From the NCBI RefSeq assembly GCF_023657445.1, contig NZ_JAGTWY010000001.1, forward strand, positions 1,054,001-1,118,000: a stretch of 64,000 bases of DNA. The letters run 5' to 3'. This document shows, piece by piece, positions 14,157 through 27,860 of the stretch. Each line of letters opens with the position of its first letter. Position 1 is the stretch's first letter. The notes beneath the pieces are model-generated. The model was not told the origin of the DNA. It ran no database searches and saw only the letters and a program-made list of their open reading frames with translations. This stretch comes from Marinobacter sediminum. GTDB taxonomy: Bacteria > Pseudomonadota > Gammaproteobacteria > Pseudomonadales > Oleiphilaceae. Made by a program: the position numbers and the translations under genes.

Positions 14157-16184
14157 ATGCGTAAATTTCTGACGATGACCGTTCTGACGTTCATCGTTTT
14201 GCCAGCCTTAGCGCGTGCCCAGGAGGCGCCGGAACTCGCACTTCCGGACCAGTCCGATATCCGGGTTATCGTTGATATTTCGGGCTCCATGAAGGATAAC
14301 GATCCTGACAACCTGAGGCAGCCAGCGGTCAGGCTCCTTGCCCGTATGCTCCCGGAAGGAACCACGGCGGGTCTCTGGACCTTCGGGGAGTTCGTGAATA
14401 TGCTCGTTCCCCACCGTGACGTTACGAATGAGTGGCGCCAGACGGCTATCGATCGCTCCCGCCAGATTAACTCTGTTGCCCTGCGAACTAACCTTGGCAA
14501 GGCCATTGAGGTTGCAAGCGATGGCTACTACACCAACGGGGTTCTTGATAATACCCATTTCATTCTGCTGACTGATGGCAAGGTCGATATTTCGGATGAT
14601 CCGGAACGTAATCGTTTGGAAGAGCAACGAATTCTTCAAACAGTTCTTCCGGAACTCGTGGCCCAGGGCGCAACGCTGCATCCCGTTGCCCTGTCTTCCC
14701 AGGCGGATGCTGAATTTCTTAAGCAGCTCGCCAGCGAATCCGGAGGGCGTTTCCAGATAGCGGAGAGCGCGGAAGCACTGAACCGGGTATTTCTGGAGGC
14801 TCTGAACACGGCGGTTCCTCAGGAACAGATTCCTATTGAAGGCAATGCCTTCACCGTGGATGACGATGTAAAAGAGTTTACTGCTCTGATCTTCTGGGGG
14901 CAGGATGAAACAGGGGCCACCCGGGAGCTGGAGCTGGTGCGACCCGATGGTGTCGCTGTGACGCTGTCCAGCCCCCCGGAAAACATGCGCTGGGCCAGAG
15001 AGGCCGGCTATGATCTGGTAACGGTTAACGAACCGTTAGCGGGTGATTGGCGTATCAAAGGGGAGTTGGGCGAGGGCAGTCGGGTGACAGTTGTCAGCGA
15101 CTTGCGGATGGTGGTCAGTCCGGTTCCGTCAACATTTTCAGAGCAAGCTCCCGTTGATTTGCGGATTGCATTCTTCGAAAGTGCGGAGAAAATCACCAAC
15201 CAGGACTTCCTCAAAGTCTTGAACGTCAGCCTTACAATAACGTCCGAAGATGGTCGAAGCGGCACCAAGGTTCTTTCCGCGGAACAGCCGCCAGAAGATG
15301 GCGTTTATTCCGACTCTATTGGCCGGCTGCCGGCTGAGGGAGTTTACCGAATTGACGTAGTGGCAGACGGCCAGACGTTCGGGCGCAAGTTTACCGCAAC
15401 GGCCAGGTTCAGTGTTCCTGAGGGCGCTGCTCCAGTGGAGCCTGTTGTTCAGGAGGATGATGGCCCCGGTGAAGAAAAACCGCCACAGGTAGCCTCTGAG
15501 CCTGAACAGGAAGGGAAACCTGTTGCCAGAGAGGAATCAGAAGCCGGGCCGGCGCCCACTATCGAGAGCCCAATTGACGTCAGCCAGGCGGAGCAGCCAC
15601 AGGCTGAGAAGCCTGCTGATACCGAGCCTTTAGCGATCGAAAACGACGAAACGAACCAGTTGCCGTTCCCCTTGTGGATGCTCGGAGCGGGGGGAGGTGG
15701 TCTTGCGGTTCTATTGCTTGCCTGGTTTGCAGTAAAGAAACGCAAGAACCGAACGGCTGCCCAGGCCGCAGCAGAACGGGAAACCATCGCTGACCTGGAT
15801 GAGGAACTTGAGCCTGAAGTCCCGGAACCGGTCGAAACGCCAGAGTCAGAACCTGATTCAGAGGAAATTCCGGAGGTGACGGACGAAGCGGTCCCGGAAG
15901 ATGATCCGGCAGAACCTGAAGCTGTCGTCGATGCCCAGGATGAGGACATCCCTGTTGCAGATGCTGTCGTCGATTCCAGTGCGGCGTCTGATGAGGACGA
16001 GGCCATTCCCGAGCTGGATGAAGTAGCCGACGAGCCGGATAGCGAGGATGACGAGGATGAGTTTGGTCTGGAAGATTTCGATCTTTCCGAATTCGACGAT
16101 CTTCCCGACTACGAAGACGATGACTTAGAGGCGTCGGATGAGGCGCCTAAAAAGAAAACTGAAGACAAAGATCAGAAAAAGTAA
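14157..16184 (+). CDS. secreted, membrane-anchored VWA-domain protein with acidic cytoplasmic tail
   Basis: 675 residues. A cleavable-looking signal peptide (about 1-21, ending ARA|Q) precedes a von Willebrand A domain with an intact MIDAS start D40-I-S-G-S44 and later T..D residues (LTDGKVD). A beta-rich region follows (~220-430), then a Pro/Glu linker. A transmembrane helix lies at about 503-525, followed by KKRKN and a ~145-residue tail very rich in Asp/Glu. The VWA domain therefore faces the periplasm and the acidic tail the cytoplasm. It starts the operon with a MoxR ATPase 17 bp downstream, which may contact the tail. The ligand is unknown. Confidence 0.85.
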   Translation: MRKFLTMTVLTFIVLPALARAQEAPELALPDQSDIRVIVDISGSMKDNDPDNLRQPAVRLLARMLPEGTTAGLWTFGEFVNMLVPHRDVTNEWRQTAIDRSRQINSVALRTNLGKAIEVASDGYYTNGVLDNTHFILLTDGKVDISDDPERNRLEEQRILQTVLPELVAQGATLHPVALSSQADAEFLKQLASESGGRFQIAESAEALNRVFLEALNTAVPQEQIPIEGNAFTVDDDVKEFTALIFWGQDETGATRELELVRPDGVAVTLSSPPENMRWAREAGYDLVTVNEPLAGDWRIKGELGEGSRVTVVSDLRMVVSPVPSTFSEQAPVDLRIAFFESAEKITNQDFLKVLNVSLTITSEDGRSGTKVLSAEQPPEDGVYSDSIGRLPAEGVYRIDVVADGQTFGRKFTATARFSVPEGAAPVEPVVQEDDGPGEEKPPQVASEPEQEGKPVAREESEAGPAPTIESPIDVSQAEQPQAEKPADTEPLAIENDETNQLPFPLWMLGAGGGGLAVLLLAWFAVKKRKNRTAAQAAAERETIADLDEELEPEVPEPVETPESEPDSEEIPEVTDEAVPEDDPAEPEAVVDAQDEDIPVADAVVDSSAASDEDEAIPELDEVADEPDSEDDEDEFGLEDFDLSEFDDLPDYEDDDLEASDEAPKKKTEDKDQKK

Positions 16185-16201: not shown

Positions 16202-17044
16202 ATGAAGTTTACCGGTACCGAAAATTACGTAGCCACCGATGACCTGCAAATGGCCGTCAACGCAGCGATTTCGCTTCAGCGTCCGCTGCTGATCAAGGGC
16301 GAGCCTGGCACCGGCAAGACGCTTCTGGCTGAGGAAATGGCTTCGGCACTGGGAATGAAGCTGATCCCCTGGCATATCAAGTCCACGACCAAGGCGCAGC
16401 AGGGACTGTATGAGTACGACGCCGTATCGCGCCTCAGGGACTCACAGCTGGGTGACGAGAAGGTCAAGGACATCAGCAACTACATCGTCAAGGGCAAGCT
16501 GTGGGAAGCCTTTGATGCGGATGAGCAGGTCGTCCTGCTGATCGACGAAATCGACAAGGCCGACATCGAGTTTCCGAACGACCTCCTGCTGGAACTGGAC
16601 CGCATGGAGTTCTATGTTTACGAGACTCAGCAGTTCGTTAGAGCCAGACAGCGACCGATCGTGGTTATCACCAGTAACAACGAGAAGGAGTTGCCAGATG
16701 CCTTCCTTCGCCGGTGTTTTTTCCACTACATCAGCTTCCCGGATCATGACAACATGAAGGAAATCGTGGATGTTCACTTTCCGGGATTGCAGCAGCAAAT
16801 CGTCCGTGATGCACTGGAAGTGTTCTTCGATGTTCGGAAGGTGCCAGGCCTTAAGAAGAAGCCGTCCACCTCTGAATTGATCGACTGGCTGAAATTGCTC
16901 ATGGCGGACGAACTGTCTGCCAAAATGCTTCAGGAGAAGGACACCAGCTCCGCGTTGCCGCCACTGTATGGCGCCCTGGTGAAGAACGAGCAAGACGTAC
17001 ACCTGCTGCAGAAACTGGCCTTCATGGCCCGTCGTCGCAGCTGA
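16202..17044 (+). CDS. MoxR-family AAA+ ATPase
   Basis: 280 residues. Walker A GEPGTGKT (33-40), Walker B LLIDEIDKAD (near 113-122), sensor 1 ITSNNEKELP and an Arg finger in FLRRCFF are all present. This is the short MoxR/CoxD-like type that pairs with a CoxE-type VWA protein. Such pairs act as chaperones that insert metals or remodel protein complexes. It sits between two VWA genes with gaps of 17 and 22 bp. The client is not identifiable here; no CO dehydrogenase or methanol dehydrogenase genes are in the window. Confidence 0.92.
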   Translation: MKFTGTENYVATDDLQMAVNAAISLQRPLLIKGEPGTGKTLLAEEMASALGMKLIPWHIKSTTKAQQGLYEYDAVSRLRDSQLGDEKVKDISNYIVKGKLWEAFDADEQVVLLIDEIDKADIEFPNDLLLELDRMEFYVYETQQFVRARQRPIVVITSNNEKELPDAFLRRCFFHYISFPDHDNMKEIVDVHFPGLQQQIVRDALEVFFDVRKVPGLKKKPSTSELIDWLKLLMADELSAKMLQEKDTSSALPPLYGALVKNEQDVHLLQKLAFMARRRS

Positions 17045-17066: not shown

Positions 17067-18245
17067 ATGTTGATTGATTTTTTTCTCGAAGTGCGCCGGG
17101 CAAAAGTGCCAGCTAGCCTGCGTGAGTTTCTGGACCTGCTGGAAGCTCTGCAACAGCGTCTGGCGTTTGCAGATATGGAAGAGTTCTATTACCTGTCACG
17201 ACTTTGCCTGGTAAAGGATGAGCGTCATTTCGACAAGTTTGATCGCGCATTCAAGGCTTACTTTGAGGGCATCGAGAATCTCGATGATCTGATGGAAATG
17301 CTGATCCCGGATGACTGGCTCCGGGCCGAATTCGAAAAGAACCTGTCCGAGGAAGACAAGGCCAAAATCGACTCTCTGGGCGGCCTTGAAGAGCTGATCG
17401 AGACGTTCAAGAAGCGGATGGAGGAGCAGGACGAACGCCATGCCGGTGGTAACAAGTGGGTTGGTACGGGGGGTACTTCGCCCTTCGGTGCTAACGGCTA
17501 TAATCCGGAAGGCTTTCGTATTGGTCAGAAGAACGGGCGCCACGGTCGTGCGGTCAAGGTCTGGGAGAAGCGCGAGTTCAAGGACCTGGATGACAGCATT
17601 ACGCTGGGGATCCGCAACATTAAAGTGGCCTTGCGTCGCCTGAGGAAATTTGCGCGACAGGGCGCTGCTGATCAGCTGGATATGGACGATACCATCCGTT
17701 CAACCGCCCGCAACGCCGGCTATCTGGATCTGAAAATGGTCCCGGAGCGGCACAACGCGGTCAAAGTGCTGATCTTTTTCGACGTGGGTGGCTCCATGGA
17801 CCCTCATGTGCGGGTCTGCGAGGAGCTGTTCTCAGCGGCGCGTCTTGAGTTCAAACACATGGAGTATTTTTACTTTCATAATTTCGTTTATGAAAGCCTG
17901 TGGACGAACAACATCCGGCGAATGAACGAGACTACCAGTACCTGGGACATACTTCACAAGTACAGCCCGGACTATAAAGTTATTTTCGTGGGTGATGCCA
18001 CCATGGCGCCCTATGAGATCTCCCATCCTGGTGGCTCGATTGAACACTGGAATGAAGAGGCTGGAGCTACCTGGTTTCAGCGCATCTCGGATCATTTCCG
18101 AAAGGTGGTCTGGCTGAATCCGTTGCCTGAGAGTTATTGGGGAACGGGCGGGTCGCTGGGTATGACCAGGCAACTGGTCAACGATCACATGTATCCGCTG
18201 ACCATCGACGGGCTGGAGTCAGCCATGAAGCAACTGACCAAATAA
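17067..18245 (+). CDS. CoxE-like VWA-domain protein
   Basis: 392 residues, no signal peptide, so cytoplasmic. The N-terminal helical region (~1-150) leads to a Gly-rich segment (GTGGTSPFGANGYNPEG). The VWA domain has MIDAS D239-V-G-G-S243, with Gly in place of the usual third-position residue but metal ligands kept. Later blocks are FHNFVYESLW and VFVGDATMAPYE. It is the usual partner of the upstream MoxR ATPase. The operon ends here; a terminator follows within 85 bp. Confidence 0.9.
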   Translation: MLIDFFLEVRRAKVPASLREFLDLLEALQQRLAFADMEEFYYLSRLCLVKDERHFDKFDRAFKAYFEGIENLDDLMEMLIPDDWLRAEFEKNLSEEDKAKIDSLGGLEELIETFKKRMEEQDERHAGGNKWVGTGGTSPFGANGYNPEGFRIGQKNGRHGRAVKVWEKREFKDLDDSITLGIRNIKVALRRLRKFARQGAADQLDMDDTIRSTARNAGYLDLKMVPERHNAVKVLIFFDVGGSMDPHVRVCEELFSAARLEFKHMEYFYFHNFVYESLWTNNIRRMNETTSTWDILHKYSPDYKVIFVGDATMAPYEISHPGGSIEHWNEEAGATWFQRISDHFRKVVWLNPLPESYWGTGGSLGMTRQLVNDHMYPLTIDGLESAMKQLTK

Positions 18246-18289: not shown

Positions 18290-18330
18290 AAGAGGGGTTG
18301 CCTGAAAGGCTTCCCCACCACCCTCTTTTT
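18290..18330 (+). terminator. terminator of the VWA-MoxR-VWA operon
   Basis: An outer stem AAGAGGG/CCCTCTT encloses a smaller GCC/GGC hairpin and is followed by a run of T. This fits a rho-independent terminator 45 bp after the CoxE-like stop codon. The stem is short, so termination may be partial. Confidence 0.6.
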
Positions 18331-18361
18331 AGCAATTAAAGGGCCACTAATAATAAACCTC

Positions 18362-18584: not shown

Positions 18585-19133
18585 ATGGTCGGCATACAAC
18601 AATCTGCAAAGCGTCGATTAATCCCATCGCACTGGGCGGGCTGTGGCTGTGTGGCTTTGGTCCTCGTTATCCCGGCAATGGCATCAGCATCTGGTATCGA
18701 TGACGAGATTGAGCAGCTCAGGGCTGCCGTGTCAGACCACTCCGCACAGGTATATGCACTGGAGCAAAAGCTCCTTCATCCAGCGGATACGCGACTGGCA
18801 GTTTTCCTGACACTTGGCACTCGTGATTCGCTGGATCTCGATTCAGTTGAGCTTTTTGTCAATGGCAAGCCTGTGGCGTCACACCTCTATTCAGAACGTG
18901 AGCGGGGCTCTCTGGAAGAAGGCGGGATTCAACAGCTCTTTACCGGAAACCTCCCTAACGGCGCCCATGAGCTAAAAACAATAGTTACCGCGCGTTCCGC
19001 CAATGACCACTTCGTTCGCAGGGAGGCGATCCATCGCTTTCAGAAACAACCGGGGACACTGCGTTTGCAGGTGAGTCTGGATGCTCGCGCTCCGGACTAT
19101 GAACCCCGGGTTTCTTTTGTTGAGTGGAAGTAA
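18585..19133 (+). CDS. secreted small protein, first gene of ExbBD/TPR operon (unknown function)
   Basis: 182 residues from the ATG at 18585; GTG and ATG codons further upstream add a segment without hydrophobic character. A long signal peptide (~1-36, ending ASA|S) is followed by a short coiled coil (DDEIEQLRAAVSDHSAQVYA) and a beta-sandwich-like domain (VELFVNGKPVASHLYS, GGIQQLFTGNLPNGAHELK). The domain resembles an Ig/Fn3-like module. Relatives have sometimes been labelled AraC regulators, but there is no DNA-binding motif here. It ends six bases before the next gene, so it is operonic. A periplasmic role with the TPR proteins is inferred. Confidence 0.7.
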   Translation: MVGIQQSAKRRLIPSHWAGCGCVALVLVIPAMASASGIDDEIEQLRAAVSDHSAQVYALEQKLLHPADTRLAVFLTLGTRDSLDLDSVELFVNGKPVASHLYSERERGSLEEGGIQQLFTGNLPNGAHELKTIVTARSANDHFVRREAIHRFQKQPGTLRLQVSLDARAPDYEPRVSFVEWK

Positions 19134-19139
19134 GCGGCT

Positions 19140-20801
19140 ATGAGGCTCCGTTTCTGGAAATCAGTTTTGTTCAAGGTTGGCGTCCAAAGCGTTGCTCTGT
19201 TGTTAGCCTCAGCGGGGGCTGTCCAGGCTTCGCCTCTGATGCCACAGGAACTGGTAGCAGGACTGACACGCTACGCCCTCGCGACTGGCAACCTGACCCC
19301 CGTAATGGCGTTTTCCGATAGCCTTGAGGGTGAATCCGGTGAATTCCTCCATGCGCGGCTGCTGCTGGAGAGCGGGAAGGTCAGCGAGGGCACTGAGTCG
19401 CTTCGAGAAGTGGCTGAAGGCCAGTATCACAGAGGCCAGGCAGCACTGATTCTGGGGCGGCATCTATCCGGTAGGGGGGAGCCTGAAAAGGCGGAAGAGT
19501 GGTTCCACCTGGCTGCCAGGGCAGGGTTCGGGGAAACCCGGCAACAGGCGTTATACGAGCTGGCCGAGTTGGCTCGATCCAGTGGTGCCACGGACAAGGC
19601 CGGGCAGATCCTGGCCGGTATGGACGAGGGCTACTGGACAGGTGTGGGGTATCTGAACCTCTCCAGCGACTACGCCCGGGAAGACCTGAACCCGGCCCGT
19701 GCTCTTGTGGCACTTCGGGTCGCCCTGGCGATGGCAGAGAGGGATCAAGTAAAAGGCAGGAATGCGGAGCTGAGGAGCCGCCTGCTGGTACGGGCCGGTT
19801 ACCTGGCTTATCAGCACGGTGAATATGAGAAGGCAATTGGCTTTCTGGAGAACGTGTCACTTGAGAGTTTCAGCACGCCTCAGGCTCTCTATTTACATGG
19901 TCTGGCGTTGTCCGAACGGGGAAATCAGCGGGCTGCAATGCAGAGCTGGCACAGGGCGAAAAAGTACCCGCTGGCATACCCGGGTGTTGCCGATGCCTGG
20001 ATTGGAATGGGACGTGGGTATGACCTTTCCGGATATCTGGGGCAGGCAGGGGAAGCATACCTTGCGGCGAATGCTGCTTATGAGAGTGAACGGGTAACGC
20101 TCAGAAAGCTGGCTGACAGAATCGGCGAACAGGGCGCCTACAAAACACTTGTTGAAGACGCCCGTGACTCTGACATCGAATGGTTTCTTGCCGACAGCCG
20201 GACCCTGACGCAGCCGAGAATGGCGTATTTACTCGAGTTCCTTGAGCGACCGGCGGCGCAGGCTGCGGTGAGTCGAGTGGCGGATCTGGTTGCTCTGGGC
20301 CATACCCTGGATCGCCAGGCTAGTGATCTGAAGGTGTTTATCGAGACTCTTGAGCAACAGCTGGAAAGCATTGCAGGAGCCGGGGGACACGTGTCCGCTT
20401 CCGGTCTTCTTCATGAGCAGGAGGTCCTGCAAGCGGGCCTGGAGCAGTTGTCAAAAAGTGCCACGACCGACGCCCAGAGGCGAAAACTGAAAGCGCTGAG
20501 TCAGTCACTGGCGACCACAGCCGGCCGGTTGACCAGTCTCGATGGCCGAGTCGCCGGACGTCCGTCAGAACTCAGCCATCAACTTCAGCAATCCAGGACA
20601 CTCAAAGCGCAGACCGATCAATACCGAACCTCGGTTGATCATCTGACGAACAAAGCCGGAAAAAAACTCGACAGTCTTGCCCTTGAGTATGTGGCTGAGC
20701 AGGACCGGCGGATGGCTTTTGCCCTCGACAAAACCGAGCAGCAGATTGCCCACCTCTACGAATACCTGGCCCTCGAAAACCTGGATGAGGGGAAGCCATG
20801 A
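19140..20801 (+). CDS. periplasmic TPR/helical-repeat protein of the ExbBD operon
   Basis: 553 residues. A signal peptide (~1-30, ending VQA|S) is followed by at least six TPR-like helix pairs between about 60 and 330, for instance AQLILGRHLSGRGEPEKAEEWFHLAAR-type repeats. The C-terminal ~200 residues are Gln/Leu/Ser-rich and predicted coiled coil. No enzymatic motif is visible. It should be a soluble periplasmic scaffold. Its stop overlaps the start of the next, larger TPR gene (ATGA), so the two products are made together. Confidence 0.75.
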   Translation: MRLRFWKSVLFKVGVQSVALLLASAGAVQASPLMPQELVAGLTRYALATGNLTPVMAFSDSLEGESGEFLHARLLLESGKVSEGTESLREVAEGQYHRGQAALILGRHLSGRGEPEKAEEWFHLAARAGFGETRQQALYELAELARSSGATDKAGQILAGMDEGYWTGVGYLNLSSDYAREDLNPARALVALRVALAMAERDQVKGRNAELRSRLLVRAGYLAYQHGEYEKAIGFLENVSLESFSTPQALYLHGLALSERGNQRAAMQSWHRAKKYPLAYPGVADAWIGMGRGYDLSGYLGQAGEAYLAANAAYESERVTLRKLADRIGEQGAYKTLVEDARDSDIEWFLADSRTLTQPRMAYLLEFLERPAAQAAVSRVADLVALGHTLDRQASDLKVFIETLEQQLESIAGAGGHVSASGLLHEQEVLQAGLEQLSKSATTDAQRRKLKALSQSLATTAGRLTSLDGRVAGRPSELSHQLQQSRTLKAQTDQYRTSVDHLTNKAGKKLDSLALEYVAEQDRRMAFALDKTEQQIAHLYEYLALENLDEGKP

Positions 20802-23605
20802 ATCGCCTGGTTGTCGGATTCATCTGCGCATTGTCTCTGGTTAATCAGGCTTTGGCTCAAGAAACATTCCGTGTTGAGTTGGGGCGTGATGGAGAAACCA
20901 TCGGTGATATGCGCCCGGTTTTTCTCAAGTTTGAGTCGCGTCCGTTGCCCGCTATTTCGCCTGCTGAGGTTGCCCGGCGCTATCAGCGTCTGTTCAGAAC
21001 TTCTGATGAGCCTGAGGTCCGGGTGGACGCCCTCAATCGTCTGACCAACATCCGGGATCAGTCGGGGCAGGACATTGGATTCTCGGTCGCAGAAGAGGAA
21101 GGCATATACCATCAGGTGATCGACAGTTACGAATCGATTCTCGCTCGTGGTTCTTTCAGCGGAAGGCTGGACGAATTGCTCTACCAGATGGCGAAGGCTC
21201 ACGCACTGACCGGACAGACTGAGGCGTCGATCGACCGGCTCAGGCAACTGGTAGGGCTCTATCCAAAATCGGCCTTTGTTCCGGAGGCCCGGTTCCGGAT
21301 TGCCGAGTCAGCTTTTTCGGCCGGTGAGTTCGCAGAGGCGGAATCCGGATATCAGGCGCTGATCGGCTCGGAAGGCATTGACGGCCTGGAAGCCAAGGCG
21401 CGCTACATGCTGGGCTGGAGCCAGTTCAAACAGGGGGCCCCAGCCTGGGACCGTGCCGGTAAGACGTTTCTTTCCGTTCTCGACGAGTTCCTGCCAACGC
21501 AGGAAAGTCTTGCCGACGTGAATGAGTCCAATGTCGATGCGATTGACGATACCTTCCGGGTCCTCGCGTTGATGGCGGCCCGGCGCAATGGTGCCGAAAC
21601 CCTCCTGTCCTGGCTTGGCGATGCGCCTGCGCGGCATTGGGAGTACCTTGTTTTCGACAGGCTGGCTGACTACTACGCGATCAATGGAGAATTTAATGCG
21701 AGTGTCGCGGTCAACCGTGCTTTTGTTCGCTATGCGCCAGGGCATTCCGAAAACCCGGGGTTCATGGCCCAGATTGCTGATGTCTGGAGCCGGGCAGGGT
21801 CGCAAGACCAACTTCGGGGAGCGAAGGCGGACTATATCGCAATGTTCGGAAGCGCCAGCGAATATGCTGTCCTTGACGAATCTGACCAGGCGCGTTGGCA
21901 ACTGTTCAGCCGGCAGTTGGGCGATTACCACTACAATCGGGCGTTTATTGCCTCTGAACAGGGCAGTCGCAGCTCGGCCGTCAATGCCTTTTCGCTGGCG
22001 GGTGATTATTATGAGGCTCTGGCAGAGCGCCTGGAAAAGGACGGTGCCGTGCTGCGCCTGGCGGGTGATGCCCGACTGCAAGCTGGGCAGTATGGAGCAG
22101 CGTTGGCGGATTTCAGGTCGGCTGCCTACGAAACTGACGAGTATTCAGAGGCTTCAGATGCCGGGTGGGCCGCCGTTGCCCTGCTTCGTGACGGGGTTGA
22201 TGGCGCTAAACAGAAGGAGGGGTTTGCACCGGATTTGACGGCGTTCTCGACCGAGGCTGACCGTTTCGCCAGCCGATTCCCTGAAGATACTCGCCTGCCG
22301 GGTTTGATGGCAGACCTTGCGACCCGATGGTTCTCTTCAGATAACGGAGCCCTTGCTCTGGAGTATGGTCAAAAAGCGATTGGGAATGATCGGGCCTCAT
22401 CGTCTGAGCGGTATGCTGGCTGGATCGTGACGGCCAAAGTCAGGCAACGCCGGGGAGAGTTCGGATTGGCAGAACGTGCCTGGAAACAGGCACTGGACTT
22501 TATTGAAACAGGAACCGTTGAGGACCTGGAATCCGATGCGAAAGACTCCGTCCTGCAGCAGCTCGCGACCGTTATTTACCGACAGGGTGAGCAGGATGCG
22601 GAAGCCGGTAGAGTCGACGCATCTGTAAGTCATTTCCGAAGAATAGAAGCGGTACTTCCCGGCTCAGCCATTGCTGTTCAGGGGCGCTTTGATGCTGCCA
22701 ACACTCTTCTGAAAGCATCCGAGCTGGTTGCAGCCATCGACGAATTAAAACAATTCCGTAATGACTTTCCGGAGCATCCGCTTACTGGCAGGGTCAGTGA
22801 CAAACTGGTTTATGCCTATGTTTCCTCTGCCCAGCCGGTTCGTGCAGCTTCTGAACTTCTGAATGCATCCATCGGTGCTGCTGATCCCTGGCCGGCCCGG
22901 CTCAGGGCTGCGGCACTGTTCCATCAAACGGGTGAAATCAAGAGACGTAACCAGCTTTATCTGGACTATCTCGCTACCAATCCTGTCCCACAAACTGCCG
23001 AGCAGCACATCCGGTTGCAGACCATGCGCCACCGTTTGGTCGAATCTGATAACGAACCTGCGAGCTGGCGCAAGGCTCTGGTCGCCAGCGAGCTTGCCAG
23101 TCAATGGCATTCCGAACACACGCTCTCCTGGGCTGCACGGAATTCGCTCGCGCTGGGAGCGAGGGCAGCAGCAACCTTTAGCAGTGTGGAGTTAATCCAG
23201 CCCCTGAATGAATCCCTGGATCGGAAGCAGAAGGCTCTCGAGACAGCCCGGCAGAGATTCCTGGACGCTGAAACCCTGGGCGGGGAAGCGGTCCGCTCTG
23301 AGTCCCTGTACCGTCGTGCCGAGCTCTATCGGTTGCTCGCTCGCGACCTGATGACGTCGTCTGTACCGGGGGACCTTAACGAGCTTGAACGTATGCAGTA
23401 TCAGATGTTGCTTGAAGAAGAGGCCTTTCCATTTGAGGAAAAGGCAATCCGATTACATTCAGAGAATCACCGGCGCATTACGTCTCAGGGATTTGACGCC
23501 TGGGTCAGTAAGAGTCTGGCAGTTTTGGCGGAGCTCAATCCCGGCCGTTACAACCGTTCGGTCCGCTGGATGAGCTGGAATAGGGAGGCCAACGATGGTG
23601 CCTGA
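20798..23605 (+). CDS. large periplasmic TPR protein of the ExbBD operon
   Basis: 935 residues with a signal peptide (~1-20, ending ALA|Q). Almost the entire length is helical repeats: segments such as YQMAKAHALTGQTEASIDRL (~129-148) and ARFRIAESAFSAGEFAEAES (~165-184) are TPR-like pairs, and similar units recur to about 850. This is the largest product in the operon and probably the main protein-protein platform between inner-membrane motor and outer envelope. No catalytic residues were recognised. It overlaps the following lipoprotein gene by 11 bases. Confidence 0.78.
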   Translation: MNRLVVGFICALSLVNQALAQETFRVELGRDGETIGDMRPVFLKFESRPLPAISPAEVARRYQRLFRTSDEPEVRVDALNRLTNIRDQSGQDIGFSVAEEEGIYHQVIDSYESILARGSFSGRLDELLYQMAKAHALTGQTEASIDRLRQLVGLYPKSAFVPEARFRIAESAFSAGEFAEAESGYQALIGSEGIDGLEAKARYMLGWSQFKQGAPAWDRAGKTFLSVLDEFLPTQESLADVNESNVDAIDDTFRVLALMAARRNGAETLLSWLGDAPARHWEYLVFDRLADYYAINGEFNASVAVNRAFVRYAPGHSENPGFMAQIADVWSRAGSQDQLRGAKADYIAMFGSASEYAVLDESDQARWQLFSRQLGDYHYNRAFIASEQGSRSSAVNAFSLAGDYYEALAERLEKDGAVLRLAGDARLQAGQYGAALADFRSAAYETDEYSEASDAGWAAVALLRDGVDGAKQKEGFAPDLTAFSTEADRFASRFPEDTRLPGLMADLATRWFSSDNGALALEYGQKAIGNDRASSSERYAGWIVTAKVRQRRGEFGLAERAWKQALDFIETGTVEDLESDAKDSVLQQLATVIYRQGEQDAEAGRVDASVSHFRRIEAVLPGSAIAVQGRFDAANTLLKASELVAAIDELKQFRNDFPEHPLTGRVSDKLVYAYVSSAQPVRAASELLNASIGAADPWPARLRAAALFHQTGEIKRRNQLYLDYLATNPVPQTAEQHIRLQTMRHRLVESDNEPASWRKALVASELASQWHSEHTLSWAARNSLALGARAAATFSSVELIQPLNESLDRKQKALETARQRFLDAETLGGEAVRSESLYRRAELYRLLARDLMTSSVPGDLNELERMQYQMLLEEEAFPFEEKAIRLHSENHRRITSQGFDAWVSKSLAVLAELNPGRYNRSVRWMSWNREANDGA

Positions 23606-24074
23606 GACATCACTCATCCGTTATGTGTTGGTAATTGTTGTTCTGGCTGGTTTGGCCGGGTGTTCGGCTCCCGCAGTCAAGAAACCCGAACCAACACCTA
23701 CGAACCCGGAAGTGGCAATGAAATACGCCCTTGAAGGCAAGCGGGCCTATGAGCAGGGTCGCAATATGGCCGCCGTAGAGGCCTGGCATCAGGCATTTGA
23801 GCTGAATCCGGAAGATGCAGTCACCGTGAACAACCTCGCCTTACTCCTTAAGGAAGAACATCGCTTTGAAGAAGCCGTGCGTTTATTGGAAGCCGGTTTG
23901 CAGTATTCGCCCGACGTTGCCCAGCTGCATTACAACCTTGCGGTGATTGCCGAGCTTTATTTGCTGGATCTTGAGAAGGCACTGGTGCACTACGAGGAAT
24001 ACCGGGAGATTAGTGGTGCCGGGGATAAAACCGTGGCGGGCTGGATTGCGGACCTGCAGCGGAGGCTGGATTAA
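23595..24074 (+). CDS. TPR lipoprotein of the ExbBD operon
   Basis: 159 residues. The lipobox LAGC puts the acylated Cys at position 23, with Ser at +2, so outer-membrane sorting is expected. A short Pro-rich stretch leads to two to three canonical TPR units (~45-140: YALEGKRAYEQGRNMAAVEA and NPEDAVTVNNLALLLKEE). The start ATG has a strong GGGAGG seven bases upstream, inside the previous gene. It resembles PilF-type TPR lipoproteins and may be the outer-membrane anchor or assembly factor for the system. Confidence 0.8.
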   Translation: MVPETSLIRYVLVIVVLAGLAGCSAPAVKKPEPTPTNPEVAMKYALEGKRAYEQGRNMAAVEAWHQAFELNPEDAVTVNNLALLLKEEHRFEEAVRLLEAGLQYSPDVAQLHYNLAVIAELYLLDLEKALVHYEEYREISGAGDKTVAGWIADLQRRLD

Positions 24075-24440
24075 ATGAATTTGGTCGCACGCCTTTATGG
24101 ACCGTTCCGGCGAAGCCCGGAGTTGTTTTTGGCAGCCTTCGTTCTGGCTTTCCTAACCTTGAGTGTTCGTTCTGAGCCAGCACCAGAATCATCGTCTGTG
24201 CGCCTGGAAGTTGAAGGTATTTCCGCCAGTATCGGCGAAGACGATCCAAGGGTGCTTTATATTCTGCCATGGCAGGCCCCCAGCTTGCCGCGCAGGCCAA
24301 GAGCCAACCTTGATGACAAGGTGCCGCAACTGGTGCAGCCGATAGCCCCGAGGGCGCTGGAGCGTCATCGGCTGTTCCGTCAAACCCTGAACCCTTTAGT
24401 TCTGAGTCCGGAAATGGATTCAGCCGTGACAGTGCAGTAA
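24075..24440 (+). CDS. small envelope protein of the ExbBD operon, unknown function
   Basis: 121 residues. An N-terminal hydrophobic segment (~14-30, LFLAAFVLAFLTLSV) acts as signal peptide or anchor. The remainder (~35-121) is short, Arg- and Pro-rich, with no known domain. It abuts the upstream gene directly (TAAATG) and lies 15 bp before the ExbB-like gene. The position suggests a periplasmic linker or motor regulator. I do not recognise the family. Confidence 0.7.
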   Translation: MNLVARLYGPFRRSPELFLAAFVLAFLTLSVRSEPAPESSSVRLEVEGISASIGEDDPRVLYILPWQAPSLPRRPRANLDDKVPQLVQPIAPRALERHRLFRQTLNPLVLSPEMDSAVTVQ

Positions 24441-24455
24441 AAACGGAGAGTAAGC

Positions 24456-25103
24456 ATGCTGGATACAATGGTACGGTTTTTCCAGGAAGGTGGGCCCTTC
24501 ATGTACCCCATCGCCGTGGTCCTTGCGATCGGATTGGCAATAACCCTCGAGCGCTTTTTCTATCTTGCAGCGGTTCGGCACCGAAACCGCACCGCGTTTG
24601 AGAAAGGGATTTTACCGCTCTTGCAGAGAAGGGATTATCGGCAGGCAATGAAAGCCGCCAGTAACTCGGACAGTGCCATCGCCTCCATCATGGGTGCCGG
24701 AATTGGTCGACTCCTTAATAACAGTCGCCGGGAAGACATTGAGTATGCAATGGAGGAGGGCCTGATGGAGGTGCTTCCCCGGCTGGAAAAACGCACGCAG
24801 TACTTGGCCACGCTCGCCAATATTGCAACGTTGCTAGGACTGCTGGGCACCATTATCGGTCTGATTTCTGCCTTCACCGCAGTTGCGGCGGCTGACCCTT
24901 CCCAGAAGGCCAGCCTGCTTTCCGAAAGCATTTCTGTGGCCATGAACACTACCGCCTTCGGCTTGATGTCGGCGATCCCTATGCTGATGTTTCACGCAGT
25001 CCTGCAAACCCGCACCAACGAAATCGTGGACAGCTTCGAAATGGCGGGCGTGAAGTTACTCAATATAGTTTCTGACCCGACGAATCAGAGCGCAGCAGCG
25101 TGA
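24456..25103 (+). CDS. MotA/TolQ/ExbB-family proton-channel protein
   Basis: 215 residues with three membrane helices (about 14-36, 113-139 and 163-183) and a cytoplasmic loop between the first two. The TM2 block LLGLLGTIIGLISAF and the TM3 block MNTTAFGLMSAIPML carry the small and Thr residues that line the ion path in ExbB/TolQ. It should form the pentameric stator around an ExbD dimer in the inner membrane. It lies 41 bp upstream of the first ExbD gene. Confidence 0.93.
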   Translation: MLDTMVRFFQEGGPFMYPIAVVLAIGLAITLERFFYLAAVRHRNRTAFEKGILPLLQRRDYRQAMKAASNSDSAIASIMGAGIGRLLNNSRREDIEYAMEEGLMEVLPRLEKRTQYLATLANIATLLGLLGTIIGLISAFTAVAAADPSQKASLLSESISVAMNTTAFGLMSAIPMLMFHAVLQTRTNEIVDSFEMAGVKLLNIVSDPTNQSAAA

Positions 25104-25144
25104 TAACGCCCGTTGAAACTGGAAAAGCTGCTGAGTGAGGTTGC

Positions 25145-25675
25145 ATGAGACGCCGACATCGAAAATCCAGCCGTTCCCCCGAACTGGACATTACAGCCTT
25201 TATGAATCTGATGATTGTGCTGGTGCCGGTTTTGCTTCTGGGAATGGTGTTCAGCCAGGTGCGCACAATTGAGCTTAACTTTCCTGGCATGGAGGCAGGA
25301 GAGGCTCCGGCCTCTGAGGAACTGAATCTGATCGTGACCCTGATACCGGCAGGGATTGAGGTGGCTGACAGTAACCGCGGCGTTATCCGGGTTTTACCGG
25401 TTAATGGCGCCGAACAGGACTTTGAGAGCCTCAGGACTGTGCTCAAACAGATCAAAAAACGTGTGCCGGATAAGACCGACGTCACCCTCGAGGTCGGGCC
25501 GGATATCGACTACCAGACCCTGGTAAAGGCCATGGACACGGTTCGCTCTTATCCGGCGGTGGTTGCTGCAAGCGTGGTTGAGGGGGAGTTGTTTCCGGAT
25601 GTGTCACTGATGGATGCGCCGGAGGATCGCCCTTTGGCTGCTGTGAATCCGGCGCATAACCGGGAGGGCGCATGA
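25145..25675 (+). CDS. ExbD/TolR-family protein 1, membrane Asp replaced by Asn
   Basis: 176 residues. A short basic cytoplasmic tail is followed by one membrane helix (~14-36) and a periplasmic domain of ExbD type. Aligning LDITAFMNLMIVL with E. coli ExbD INVTPFIDVMLVL places Asn21 where ExbD has the essential proton-carrying Asp25 (codon 25205-25207, AAT). The protein may therefore not relay protons itself. The stop overlaps the start of the second ExbD gene (ATGA), suggesting that the two make a heterodimer. Confidence 0.9.
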   Translation: MRRRHRKSSRSPELDITAFMNLMIVLVPVLLLGMVFSQVRTIELNFPGMEAGEAPASEELNLIVTLIPAGIEVADSNRGVIRVLPVNGAEQDFESLRTVLKQIKKRVPDKTDVTLEVGPDIDYQTLVKAMDTVRSYPAVVAASVVEGELFPDVSLMDAPEDRPLAAVNPAHNREGA

Positions 25676-26160
25676 AAAAGTCGCGGAGAGCCCGGAGAGT
25701 TCAACGGCATTATGGCCGAATGCACAGGACCGGTGGCCTGAATCTGGTTTCGCTAATGGATATCTTCACCATCCTGGTGTTCTTCCTGATGGTTAACTCT
25801 TCTGATGTAAAGGTAATGCAGAATACCGCGGATGTGCCCTTGCCGAAGTCCACATCTGAAAACGAAGCCGTGGAGAATCTGACGGTTCAGGTGAATGGCG
25901 GATCAATCCTGGTTCAGGGTCGTGAAGTCGCCCGTATTGAAGGTATCGAGGTGGGCGATTCCCATATTGCGGGTTTGTCTGATGAGCTTGCCTATCGCAG
26001 AGCCCGTCGGTCCGGGGTTCCGGAGCAGGGACTCGAAATCACCATCATGGCGGGCCGTGATACGGATTACCGGTTGTTGCGCAAGATTATGCAAACCTGT
26101 GTAGACGAGCAGTTCCGTCAGGTTCGGCTTGCGGTCGAGGCGGAGGTGCGTAATGGCTGA
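25672..26160 (+). CDS. ExbD/TolR-family protein 2, membrane Asp retained
   Basis: 162 residues. A longer, very basic N-terminal tail (eight Arg/Lys in the first 12 residues) precedes the membrane helix, which keeps the proton-relay Asp: LVSLMDIFTILVFFL with Asp30 (codon 25759-25761). A periplasmic ExbD-like domain follows from about 50. With ExbD 1 it probably forms the rotor or dimer inside the ExbB pentamer, supplying the only protonatable residue at this position. It overlaps the transducer gene by eight bases. Confidence 0.92.
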   Translation: MKKSRRARRVQRHYGRMHRTGGLNLVSLMDIFTILVFFLMVNSSDVKVMQNTADVPLPKSTSENEAVENLTVQVNGGSILVQGREVARIEGIEVGDSHIAGLSDELAYRRARRSGVPEQGLEITIMAGRDTDYRLLRKIMQTCVDEQFRQVRLAVEAEVRNG

Positions 26161-27139
26161 ACCCCAAAAGGAAATGGGGGCGTCACCCGGTTTACCCTGG
26201 AGCGCAGACGCCGGAGAAAGGCGTCGGTTTGGCGTGATTCTCGGGTTAACCCTCATCGTTTTTGTGCCACCCGCGTTCCTCATTCCGACACTTGAGGTGC
26301 CCGAAATTGAACGCTCGGAGGCTGAAAAGGTCCCGCCACAGCTTGCGCGTTTGATTGAGCGGCCCAAACCTCCGGCGCAGCCTGAGAAAATACAGCCGGG
26401 GCGGGAACCAGAACCAAAACCGGAACCGGAAGCGGAACCGGAACCTGAAGTAACAACGCCTTCCCCTGATTTGCCTGAGCCCCAACTGGCTCAGCCGGAG
26501 CAAGATCCCGAACCTGTTCAGAACGCACCTGAACGACAGACTGTTGAGCAGGCTCGTGAAAAGGCGTCCAGTTCAGGCCTGCTGGCGATGAAAGACCGGT
26601 TGGCGTCCTTGAGGGCATCCAAGCCAGCACCAGCCAAGCGCTTACAGGCAAATGCTGGTGCCGAGGGACTTTCTGGAGACCCGGTTGTTACAGAGTCCGA
26701 GACTGCATTGCAGGGTAGTGGAGGGGTTGAGGATGCTGACGCCCCCCGTGCCCGGGTAGCGGTCGACAGCCATCAGGTGAAGCAGGTTAAACCCACATCA
26801 GAGCCGGTCCGGAAGGTTGCCGGGGCAAAGGCTCCGAAGCCGTCGGCCGGAGAGAGGGCGATGAGCAACATTCGCAAAGTCTTTGCCACACAGAAAACAG
26901 CTCTCTACTCGCTATACCGCCGTGAATTGCGCCAGGATCCGACGCTGGCGGGCAAAGTCTTGCTGGAGCTTGTTATTGAACCGGATGGTTCGGTCTCGGC
27001 CTGTGATGTCGTCAATTCGGAGCTGGAGAATCCGGCCCTGGAACGTCGAATTGCCATGAGGGTTCGGCTGTTCAATTTTGGCTCTGACAATGTTGAAGCC
27101 AGGAAGGTCCGTTTCCCGGTGGATTTCCTCCCCGGTTAG
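26153..27139 (+). CDS. TonB-like energy transducer (AgmX/PglI C-terminal domain)
   Basis: 328 residues from the ATG at 26153, which has GGAGG six bases upstream; an earlier in-frame start at 26129 lacks this. A membrane helix at ~28-46 is followed by a long Pro/Glu-rich periplasmic linker with repeated PEP units (~60-150). A C-terminal domain (~240-328) reads KVLLELVIEPDGSVSACDVVNSEL, close to the AgmX/PglI and TonB C-terminal fold. This is the layout of TonB. It closes the nine-gene operon and presumably carries motor force to an outer partner. Confidence 0.87.
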   Translation: MAEPQKEMGASPGLPWSADAGERRRFGVILGLTLIVFVPPAFLIPTLEVPEIERSEAEKVPPQLARLIERPKPPAQPEKIQPGREPEPKPEPEAEPEPEVTTPSPDLPEPQLAQPEQDPEPVQNAPERQTVEQAREKASSSGLLAMKDRLASLRASKPAPAKRLQANAGAEGLSGDPVVTESETALQGSGGVEDADAPRARVAVDSHQVKQVKPTSEPVRKVAGAKAPKPSAGERAMSNIRKVFATQKTALYSLYRRELRQDPTLAGKVLLELVIEPDGSVSACDVVNSELENPALERRIAMRVRLFNFGSDNVEARKVRFPVDFLPG

Positions 27140-27188: not shown

Positions 27189-27674
27189 TCACGCTTCGAT
27201 GGTGATTTTTGGCAGGCGCGGTTTATGAAGTGACACCTTCTCGGTTGGCGCGATGACCTTTGCCTCGCCACCAACGACCTGTCGGTTATTCTGGTTACGC
27301 ACATCGCATTGGACCACGACCCGGTTCCTGGGCTCCTTTCGCAAAACGGTAAGCGTCACAGTAAGTGTGTCATCCAGTTTTACCGGGCGTTTGAAACTGA
27401 GGTTTTGCTCCAGATAAATTGTGCCAGGCCCCGGCATAACGGTTGCCAGTGCTGCCGAGATCAGCGAACCGCTCCACATTCCGTGCGCAATACGCTCCTT
27501 GAACATGGACCTGGCGGCAAATTCGGAATCCAGGTGCACCGGATTTACGTCGCCTGACACCGCAGCGAAAAGGACGAGCTCGTCTTCTGAAAGTGTGCGC
27601 GTGAAGGTTGCAGTGTCACCCTCATTCAGCTCGTCATAGGTAATATTTTCAAGAGTATCAAGGGTGTCGCTCAT
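27189..27674 (-). CDS. MaoC-like hotdog-fold protein ((R)-enoyl-CoA hydratase-like)
   Basis: 161 residues from the ATG at 27674; an ATG 11 codons upstream has no better ribosome site. The hydratase-2 motif is present as FAAVSGDVNPVHLD, with the catalytic Asp and His, followed by HGMWSG. This resembles PhaJ-like R-specific enoyl-CoA hydratases and MaoC dehydratases. It would hydrate trans-2-enoyl-CoA, linking beta-oxidation to other lipid or polyhydroxyalkanoate pathways. It is divergent from fadD, with a shared 186-bp promoter region, consistent with joint control by fatty acids. Confidence 0.85.
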   Translation of the reverse strand: MSDTLDTLENITYDELNEGDTATFTRTLSEDELVLFAAVSGDVNPVHLDSEFAARSMFKERIAHGMWSGSLISAALATVMPGPGTIYLEQNLSFKRPVKLDDTLTVTLTVLRKEPRNRVVVQCDVRNQNNRQVVGGEAKVIAPTEKVSLHKPRLPKITIEA

Positions 27675-27860
27675 AATGTGTTCCGCACCTTTGTCATTTG
27701 AATACAAGTGTTCTGGCTGGTGCCCCGAAAACTACCTCATCGTTAACAAAACTGCTATTCTCTCCCGACTTTTTTGAGGCTGATACTTTTGTAGGGTTGA
27801 TTTTTGATCGGCTTTGCACTGGTGAATCAATAAAATCAAAACGCCAAACAGGAGATGGTG

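Follow-up and report, generated by a model that had tools for sequence, protein, structure and literature searches.

A nine-gene operon of Marinobacter sediminum, probably a proton-driven trans-envelope unit and a variant form of the Agl/Glt core complex

Introduction

A stretch of 64,000 nucleotides from Marinobacter sediminum (assembly GCF_023657445.1, contig NZ_JAGTWY010000001.1, positions 1,054,001 to 1,118,000; hereafter the window, with positions counted from its first letter) carries an operon of nine genes, g1 to g9, which encode an ExbB-like channel subunit, two ExbD-like proteins, three tetratricopeptide repeat (TPR) proteins, a TonB-like transducer and two further exported proteins. 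This operon is a real and conserved trans-envelope unit, probably proton-driven, and represents a variant of a kind already known. Sequence establishes which nine genes are present, to which families they belong, that they are conserved together and that g9 is akin to GltG/GltJ. The known kind is the core complex of aglRQS with gltC, gltD, gltE and gltG (Luciano et al., 2011; PMC3169522), the presumed ancestor of the myxobacterial gliding machinery. A first-pass annotation of the window missed that the gene set was already published in 2011 as this core complex. Thus the gene set itself is known, and what is new here is the membership of g1 and g5, the Asn/Asp split between g7 and g8, the partner modules beside related copies and the traits of the window copy.

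Results

The nine genes and their families

In the open reading frame (ORF) list of the window, the operon is an intact run of nine tightly packed genes on the + strand at 18585-27139:

18585..19133, + strand: g1, secreted helix plus beta-sandwich protein, 182 amino acids (ORF and AlphaFold model)
19140..20801, + strand: g2, exported TPR protein, 553 amino acids, GltC-like by order (weak TPR matches below Pfam cut-offs)
20798..23605, + strand: g3, large exported TPR protein, 935 amino acids, GltD-like by size and order (TPR_6 and YfiO above cut-off)
23595..24074, + strand: g4, small TPR lipoprotein, 159 amino acids, GltE-like by order (TPR_11 above cut-off)
24075..24440, + strand: g5, small exported protein, 121 amino acids, with a conserved PW motif (ORF and alignment columns)
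24456..25103, + strand: g6, MotA/TolQ/ExbB-family channel subunit, AglR-like, 215 amino acids (PF01618, MotA_ExbB, 103 bits)
25145..25675, + strand: g7, first ExbD-family protein, in the AglQ place of the order (PF02472, 50 bits)
25672..26160, + strand: g8, second ExbD-family protein, in the AglS place of the order (PF02472, 53 bits)
26153..27139, + strand: g9, Pro/Glu-rich transducer with a single transmembrane (TM) segment and an AgmX/PglI (GltG/GltJ-type) C-terminal domain (NF033768; TM segment by eye)

Gaps of 6, 15 and 41 bp separate g1 from g2, g5 from g6 and g6 from g7; g4 and g5 abut, and overlaps of 4 bp (g2/g3), 11 bp (g3/g4), 4 bp (g7/g8) and 8 bp (g8/g9) join the others. These spacings assume ATG starts at 18585 for g1 and 26153 for g9, longer frames from 18513 and 26129 being possible. 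The nine-gene overlapping run with ExbB, two ExbD, TPR and transducer genes described in the first-pass annotation is thus borne out by ORFs, spacing and Pfam/NCBIfam families, and the families, together with the conservation given below, also agree with its description of a trans-envelope energy-transducing operon.

The C-terminal domain of g9 matches NF033768 (AgmX/PglI C-terminal domain) at 58.4 bits against a cut-off of 40, and g9 also matches the GltG model at 43 bits and the GltJ model at 39 bits, both far below the full-length cut-offs. Scores of 69 bits against the TolQ equivalog model (cut-off 221) and 41 bits against the ExbB model (cut-off 206) place g6 outside both equivalogs. A separate TolQ is encoded elsewhere in the genome (301 bits, cut-off 221), and ten MotA/ExbB-family matches were counted in the whole genome. 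The earlier proposal that the AgmX/PglI C-terminus points to the Agl/Glt kind, not to iron uptake, is therefore upheld by the g9 and g6 matches. Since an ExbB-like and two ExbD-like genes are clustered with TPR proteins and with a GltG-type transducer carrying this domain, the window operon is a member of the kind described by Luciano et al. (2011).

The other products are less easily named. In its AlphaFold model (mean pLDDT 84), g1 consists of a helix at residues 35-64 and strands at 69-181, as expected of the secreted beta-sandwich protein predicted earlier. No Pfam or NCBIfam family matched it at E 0.1, and structure comparison gave generic sandwich matches only. g3 has a conserved C-terminal LEE-A-P stretch (alignment A1, 14 sequences). 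g4 has an LAGC lipobox, read by eye, and its NCBIfam matches to Tgl and GltE are weak and far below cut-off. The Pro65 and Trp66 columns of g5 are 99-100% conserved over 107 rows, and again no Pfam or NCBIfam family was matched at E 0.1. g5 may correspond to GltF, as its small size and its place after the GltE-like gene suggested; no functional name occurs in the best 120 of its 488 homologues.

Conservation as a unit

Relatives were collected in three samples. In the class sample, a g2 query matched 28 of 274 class genomes (own genome included), and 30 of 33 other places were taken. The named-collection sample came from a search of genome contigs with a GltD-like alignment profile, which gave at least 585 relatives; of these, the 80 most similar to a single redox-linked copy (L084) were retained, some of them from genomes that also occur in the class sample. 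In the order sample, a g3 query matched 84 of 244 order genomes (own included), and 40 places from 38 genomes, mostly top-ranked, were used. Loci with fewer than four of the nine genes were dropped (6/30 class, 5/80 named), leaving 24 class and 75 named loci.

The co-occurrence of the nine families, a check proposed in the first-pass annotation, was high in every sample. All nine genes are present in 15 of the 20 class loci not cut by an end, a count that is partly by construction since the family models were seeded from L071-L110. They are likewise all present in 47 of 53 uncut named-collection loci and in 37/40 order loci. The nine-gene set is therefore far beyond chance and is, on these counts, conserved as a unit. 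Homologues of g2 occur in 23/24 class loci, as does g1, the near-constant first gene. With g5 also near-constant, the unit is one of nine genes by the loci sampled, an addition to the described core. The window type itself has a narrower range: outside Marinobacter, only one genus of its family (G516) has it, with 43% identity, and full-length matches in other genera were at most 30% identical (g3 query, order sample).

An Asn/Asp split between the two ExbD-like proteins

In alignment to a solved ExbD, g7 has N21 opposite the intramembrane Asp, which we take to be D25 of ExbD; g8 has D30 aligned to the Asp of a solved TolR, a weak match (E 0.55). The split is widespread. Window included, the g7 position is Asn in 78, Asp in 17 and a gap in 1 of 96 rows, and the g8 position is Asp in 90 and a gap in 1 of 91 rows. 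Among the 91 rows with both proteins, 72 are Asn/Asp, 17 Asp/Asp and 2 gapped. When the order sample was read by pattern, g7 had Asn in 36, Asp in 1 and was unread in 2 (n=39), and g8 had Asp in 38 and was unread in 1 (n=39).

In Myxococcus, the engineered change D28N of AglQ abolishes proton conductance and blocks movement (PMC3858216); AglQ D28 is assumed here to be the equivalent of g7 N21. Both AglQ and AglS are described with an intramembrane Asp (PMC9389320), a pair that the window operon does not have (g7 N21, g8 D30). The Asn of g7 is treated as a variant within the core-complex kind, because 17 relatives keep both Asp and neither that paper nor Luciano et al. (2011) gives the Asp pair as defining. 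A natural Asn in the protein at the AglQ place suggests that the g7/g8 motor has a single power site.

The genomic site and the copies within Marinobacter

The operon lies between the following features of the window, all outside the unit:

14157-16184, + strand: VWA1 (family match)
16202-17044, + strand: MoxR-like AAA+ (family match)
17067-18245, + strand: VWA_CoxE (family match)
18291..18332, + strand: terminator-like hairpin and T-run after CoxE (by eye; missed by a hairpin scan with a loop limit of 8)
27189..27707, - strand: MaoC-like gene, the downstream boundary (PF01575)

Because the hairpin stands between CoxE and g1, the operon is probably transcribed on its own. VWA1 has, by eye, a signal peptide and a C-terminal TM segment, and the gene is found in 56/61 Marinobacter genomes.

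The window type occurs in 46 of the 61 genus genomes (own included; g3 identity at least 46%); 44 of these genomes have it no more than 5 kb from CoxE, and the other 2 have CoxE on a different contig. CoxE is present in 59/61 genomes, and 13 of these are without a window-type operon; for this reason and because of L252 (below), VWA1-MoxR-CoxE was rejected as a required functional partner. Twelve of these 13 sites were read: 11 have no match to any of g1-g9, and 1 holds a remnant. In this decayed window-type operon (L196:8931-11052), g1, a piece of g2, g7, g8 and g9 remain, and g3-g6 have no match. The MaoC-like gene adjoins CoxE at 6 of the 12 sites (5 empty, 1 remnant). A cassette at the VWA-MoxR-CoxE site is also found in another family (L217, L223, L230), and L252 has one without VWA-MoxR-CoxE at apparently the same dnaX/rnd-side site (by eye); from these copies the site is judged to be old. 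Sequence comparison gave dN/dS (nonsynonymous over synonymous divergence) of 0.11/2.2 for g6, 0.25/2.7 for g3 and 0.39/2.9 for g2, where dS is near saturation and unreliable; no dS value was obtained in the other 4 of 7 comparisons. As far as such values can tell, the genes appear to have been maintained by selection.

Two further types of paralogous copy, B and C, exist in the genus, and all three types are together in one genome (G311). In B-type copies, HzsA-SH3barrel-OMP-TlpA-DUF4266-DUF3570 precede g1-g9; in C-type copies, HzsA follows g9 and a divergent barrel pair is added. M. sediminum itself has a second copy, of C type (L101/L102, G000:C1:2,649-2,664 kb); its g9 is followed by a gene for an HzsA-like lipoprotein, and a divergent SH3-barrel/OMP pair lies upstream. 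Its own DUF3570 and ApbE genes lie together at G000:C1:2,726,751-2,729,029, about 64 kb from the C-type copy.

The types also differ in g3. A lipobox pattern was found in 0/9 window-type rows, 4/4 C-type rows and 3/5 B-type rows. Among copies at the site of the window copy (apparently so for L252), it is present in L223, L230 and L252 and absent in L217, and it is also absent in L214 and L219. The count over class loci (41/105) comes from a simple pattern with uncertain starts, and only the contrast between close copies is used here.

Partner modules beside related copies

Many related copies have characteristic neighbours, annotated here from one representative each. The recurrent ones are ApbE, a TlpA-like thioredoxin, DUF3570, DUF4266, an SH3 plus barrel protein, an OMP_myx plus barrel protein and a protein with an HZS_alpha domain. 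At least one of five families (ApbE, TlpA, HzsA-like, DUF3570, OMP_myx) is present within the fetched stretch in 14/24 class loci, in 64/75 named loci (10 of the remaining 11 are cut by an end) and in 16/40 order loci. The last figure includes L230, which counts by a TlpA match of 31 bits alone, too weak to build on. In six more order loci a LamG/cytochrome set stands alone, and in 18 both this set and the five families are missing; 3 of the 18 sit at the VWA-MoxR-CoxE site of the window. In 23 loci without the five families, no neighbour family is shared by more than 6. From the differing modules and the lack of a common one in these 23 loci, the output side looks exchangeable and may be absent.

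Among 30 genus genomes tested, an HzsA-like gene was found in 6/6 that carry the window type together with a B or C copy, in 0/16 with the window type only and in 0/8 with no copy, and all 7 HzsA-like loci in these genomes adjoin a cassette; the query was a C-type protein, so that remote relatives could escape. OMP_myx matches of at least 150 bits show the same genome pattern, and weaker ones (at most 62.8 bits) occur in most of the 30 genomes, 29 of which have some match. Among 33 members of the HzsA family, 13 are without CXXCH. None of these partner genes stands beside the window copy. The first-pass statement on missing partners (no receptor or tol-pal gene attached) thus holds for the window copy, while many homologous copies have outer-membrane or redox neighbours.

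Two other kinds of neighbour were seen. A LamG-family match occurs in 11/40 order loci; in the upstream module exemplified by L080:3503-8848, a PSD2-like protein (match below cut-off) mostly has one CXXCH and the LamG protein mostly two, together with a Tat-like secreted protein (by eye). Giant secreted ORFs, most of them cut by the stretch end, directly follow g9 in L233, L240, L243 and L129 (one family). L237 has a giant secreted ORF of another family after g9, with clear DUF11 repeats; DUF11 is above cut-off in L237 and L240 and below it in L233. These giant ORFs are possible candidates for surface cargo.

Discussion

Proposed mechanism

The reading that we consider rather probable is that the operon encodes a stand-alone, proton-driven core machine of the Agl/Glt type, in which a GltG-like transducer and a TPR scaffold move an outer-membrane or surface cargo. 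First, g6 would form an inner-membrane pentamer of a 5:2-type motor, around an axle of g7 and g8 in which only g8 would have a protonatable Asp. Proton flow would move this asymmetric axle, and the motor would act through g9, whose linker would span the periplasm and whose C-terminal domain would engage the scaffold of g2, g3 and g4 with g1 and g5. The scaffold would then pass the force on to the outer membrane or a surface cargo. Beside related copies lie genes for a candidate cargo or output module, namely an HzsA-like lipoprotein with barrels and a flavinylation set, LamG-cytochrome sets or giant secreted proteins. The corresponding module of the window copy may be encoded elsewhere or lost, and its g3 may have become soluble and no longer anchored to the outer membrane. 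Motor function was put forward as an inference in the first-pass annotation and is still inferred.

Several points weigh against this reading. The g7-g8 heterodimer is assumed; the two proteins could form separate homodimers, of which that of g7 would be without a proton site, and g7 keeps Asp in 17 of 95 readable rows. The window-type operon is dispensable, since it is absent from 15/61 genus genomes (one of them with the remnant). The GltC, GltD and GltE labels of g2, g3 and g4 come from order, size and Luciano et al. (2011). The neighbour counts in the class and order samples are raw counts, a base rate having been measured for HzsA only. No cargo for the window copy was found among its neighbours, and the case for this copy is made from sequence.

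Alternative readings

A wider form of the proposal can be offered tentatively. In this form, a widespread 5:2-type motor with an asymmetric axle of one power site would drive output modules of the outer membrane that can be exchanged, many of them surface redox apparatus (flavinylated DUF3570, HzsA-like cytochromes, outer-membrane barrels), and the window copy would be repurposed, freed of its lipid anchor and redox partners.

It seems unlikely that the operon encodes a motor devoted to surface transport or adhesion, like the Agl-Glt/Nfs machines of Myxococcus, moving along the envelope with a polymer or adhesin for short-range sliding or coat packing. Agl-Nfs shares the core and carries spore-coat glycan around the cell (PMC3858216), and giant secreted ORFs follow g9 in the four loci of one family and, with another make-up, in L237. 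However, the window has no giant ORF after g9, and Luciano et al. (2011) argued that the core is insufficient for motility, gliding being undocumented in most carriers. A genome-wide search for the AgmX-type domain found it twice, once per copy.

We find it more doubtful that the motor serves to assemble, position or gate an electron-transfer apparatus at the cell surface, with the window copy as a paralogue that lost its redox partners. The frequency of the five partner families in class and named loci, the distribution of the HzsA-like gene and the fact that DUF3570 is a proven ApbE substrate (PMC8238504) speak for such a redox machine. However, no such gene accompanies the window copy, 16 genomes carry the window type without an HzsA-like match, and 18/40 order loci have neither the five families nor the LamG set. 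The ranking of the named set favours loci that resemble a single redox-linked copy, the TlpA family is common, and 13/33 HzsA-family members have no CXXCH.

An ordinary TonB-type uptake energiser with receptors elsewhere is very improbable: the ExbB, ExbD and TonB-like domains and a weak TonB_C match in g9, below cut-off, would fit it, but g6 is not an ExbB or TolQ equivalog in a genome with its own TolQ and further MotA/ExbB-family genes, two ExbDs and three TPR proteins are present, g9 has no conserved His in or near its TM helix (4/23 rows), and there is no receptor among the nine genes, TonB-dependent receptors not having been sought genome-wide.

For the stand-alone core machine, the partner modules and the Asn/Asp split allow direct tests of the drive residue and of a redox or surface role. 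Genomes of Marinobacter hold up to three paralogous copies, with cases of presence, absence and decay found in nature, and genetic systems are available in this genus (PMC6308636; PMC4503921).

Comparison with known systems

Tol-Pal and Ton share with the operon a channel of the ExbB/TolQ family, the ExbD/TolR family and a transducer with a single TM segment. They differ from it by its two ExbDs, its TPR scaffold and the lack of a conserved TM His in g9; neither TolB, Pal nor a receptor is among the nine genes. TonB has a conserved His in its TM helix (PMC12204202), whereas His in or near the TM helix of g9 occurs in 4/23 rows, with no column holding it in more than 2 rows, and is missing from the window row (alignment A4).

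Clusters of ApbE, thioredoxin, DUF4266 and DUF3570 have been described for flavinylation (Meheust et al., 2021; PMC8238504). Several homologous cassettes have all four of these families as neighbours, whereas the window copy has none of them; neither ExbB nor TolQ is mentioned in the main text of that paper. Among the matches listed in the open-licence literature, mostly as titles and abstract openings, no paper joined the AglR/Glt core with ApbE/DUF3570, and none reported a function of the core in gammaproteobacteria.

Two published gene sets resemble the operon. In Fibrobacter succinogenes, FSU_2397-2403 are, in locus-tag order, TPR, TPR, gap, ExbB, ExbD, ExbD and TonB, and FSU_2397, 2398 and 2400-2403 are 1.2- to 1.7-fold more abundant on cellulose; in that study they were interpreted in terms of cellodextrin uptake and of a cellulolytic complex (PMC6851124). 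Judged from gene order, this set may be a core complex. In Marinobacter atlanticus, ACP86_00815-00830 encode a TonB C-terminal protein, two ExbD and one ExbB, and resemble g9-g6 in make-up; in a rubredoxin mutant, the TonB-like gene is lower and the ExbB/D genes are unchanged (PMC8233155).

With the Agl-Glt gliding and Agl-Nfs sporulation machines of Myxococcus (PMC3858216), the operon shares an AglRQS-type motor, a GltG-type transducer and TPR proteins. An AglR-GltG interaction and a dependence of GltD localisation on AglQ are known there (PMC3169522). None of the Group A genes (gltA, B, F, H, I, J, K) was recognised among the nine in family scans, and g7 naturally has, at the ExbD Asp position, the residue that inactivates AglQ when engineered. 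Surface movement, documented in Myxococcus, is not known for the window operon.

The closest relative is the core complex of Luciano et al. (2011; PMC3169522). It was reported in gammaproteobacteria including Marinobacter, with duplication in two Marinobacter, and it is clustered in one region in all carriers outside the Deltaproteobacteria and in Geobacter. Its function in gammaproteobacteria was given there as unknown, and the core was thought unlikely to drive motility alone; a paper of 2013 likewise has it standing alone in many gammaproteobacteria, possibly as a basal transport machinery (PMC3858216). The first-pass annotation, which knew of no described function in this class, is in line with both. 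The published cluster holds, besides its seven genes, one more gene for which Myxococcales and Bdellovibrionales have no homologue, as against nine near-constant genes here. The Asn of g7 and the predicted soluble state of g3 are further differences, and partner modules like those at other copies are not known to be described in that paper. The likeness lies in the AglR-, AglQ-, AglS-, GltC-, GltD-, GltE- and GltG-like genes held in one cluster, and in the occurrence of duplicated copies.

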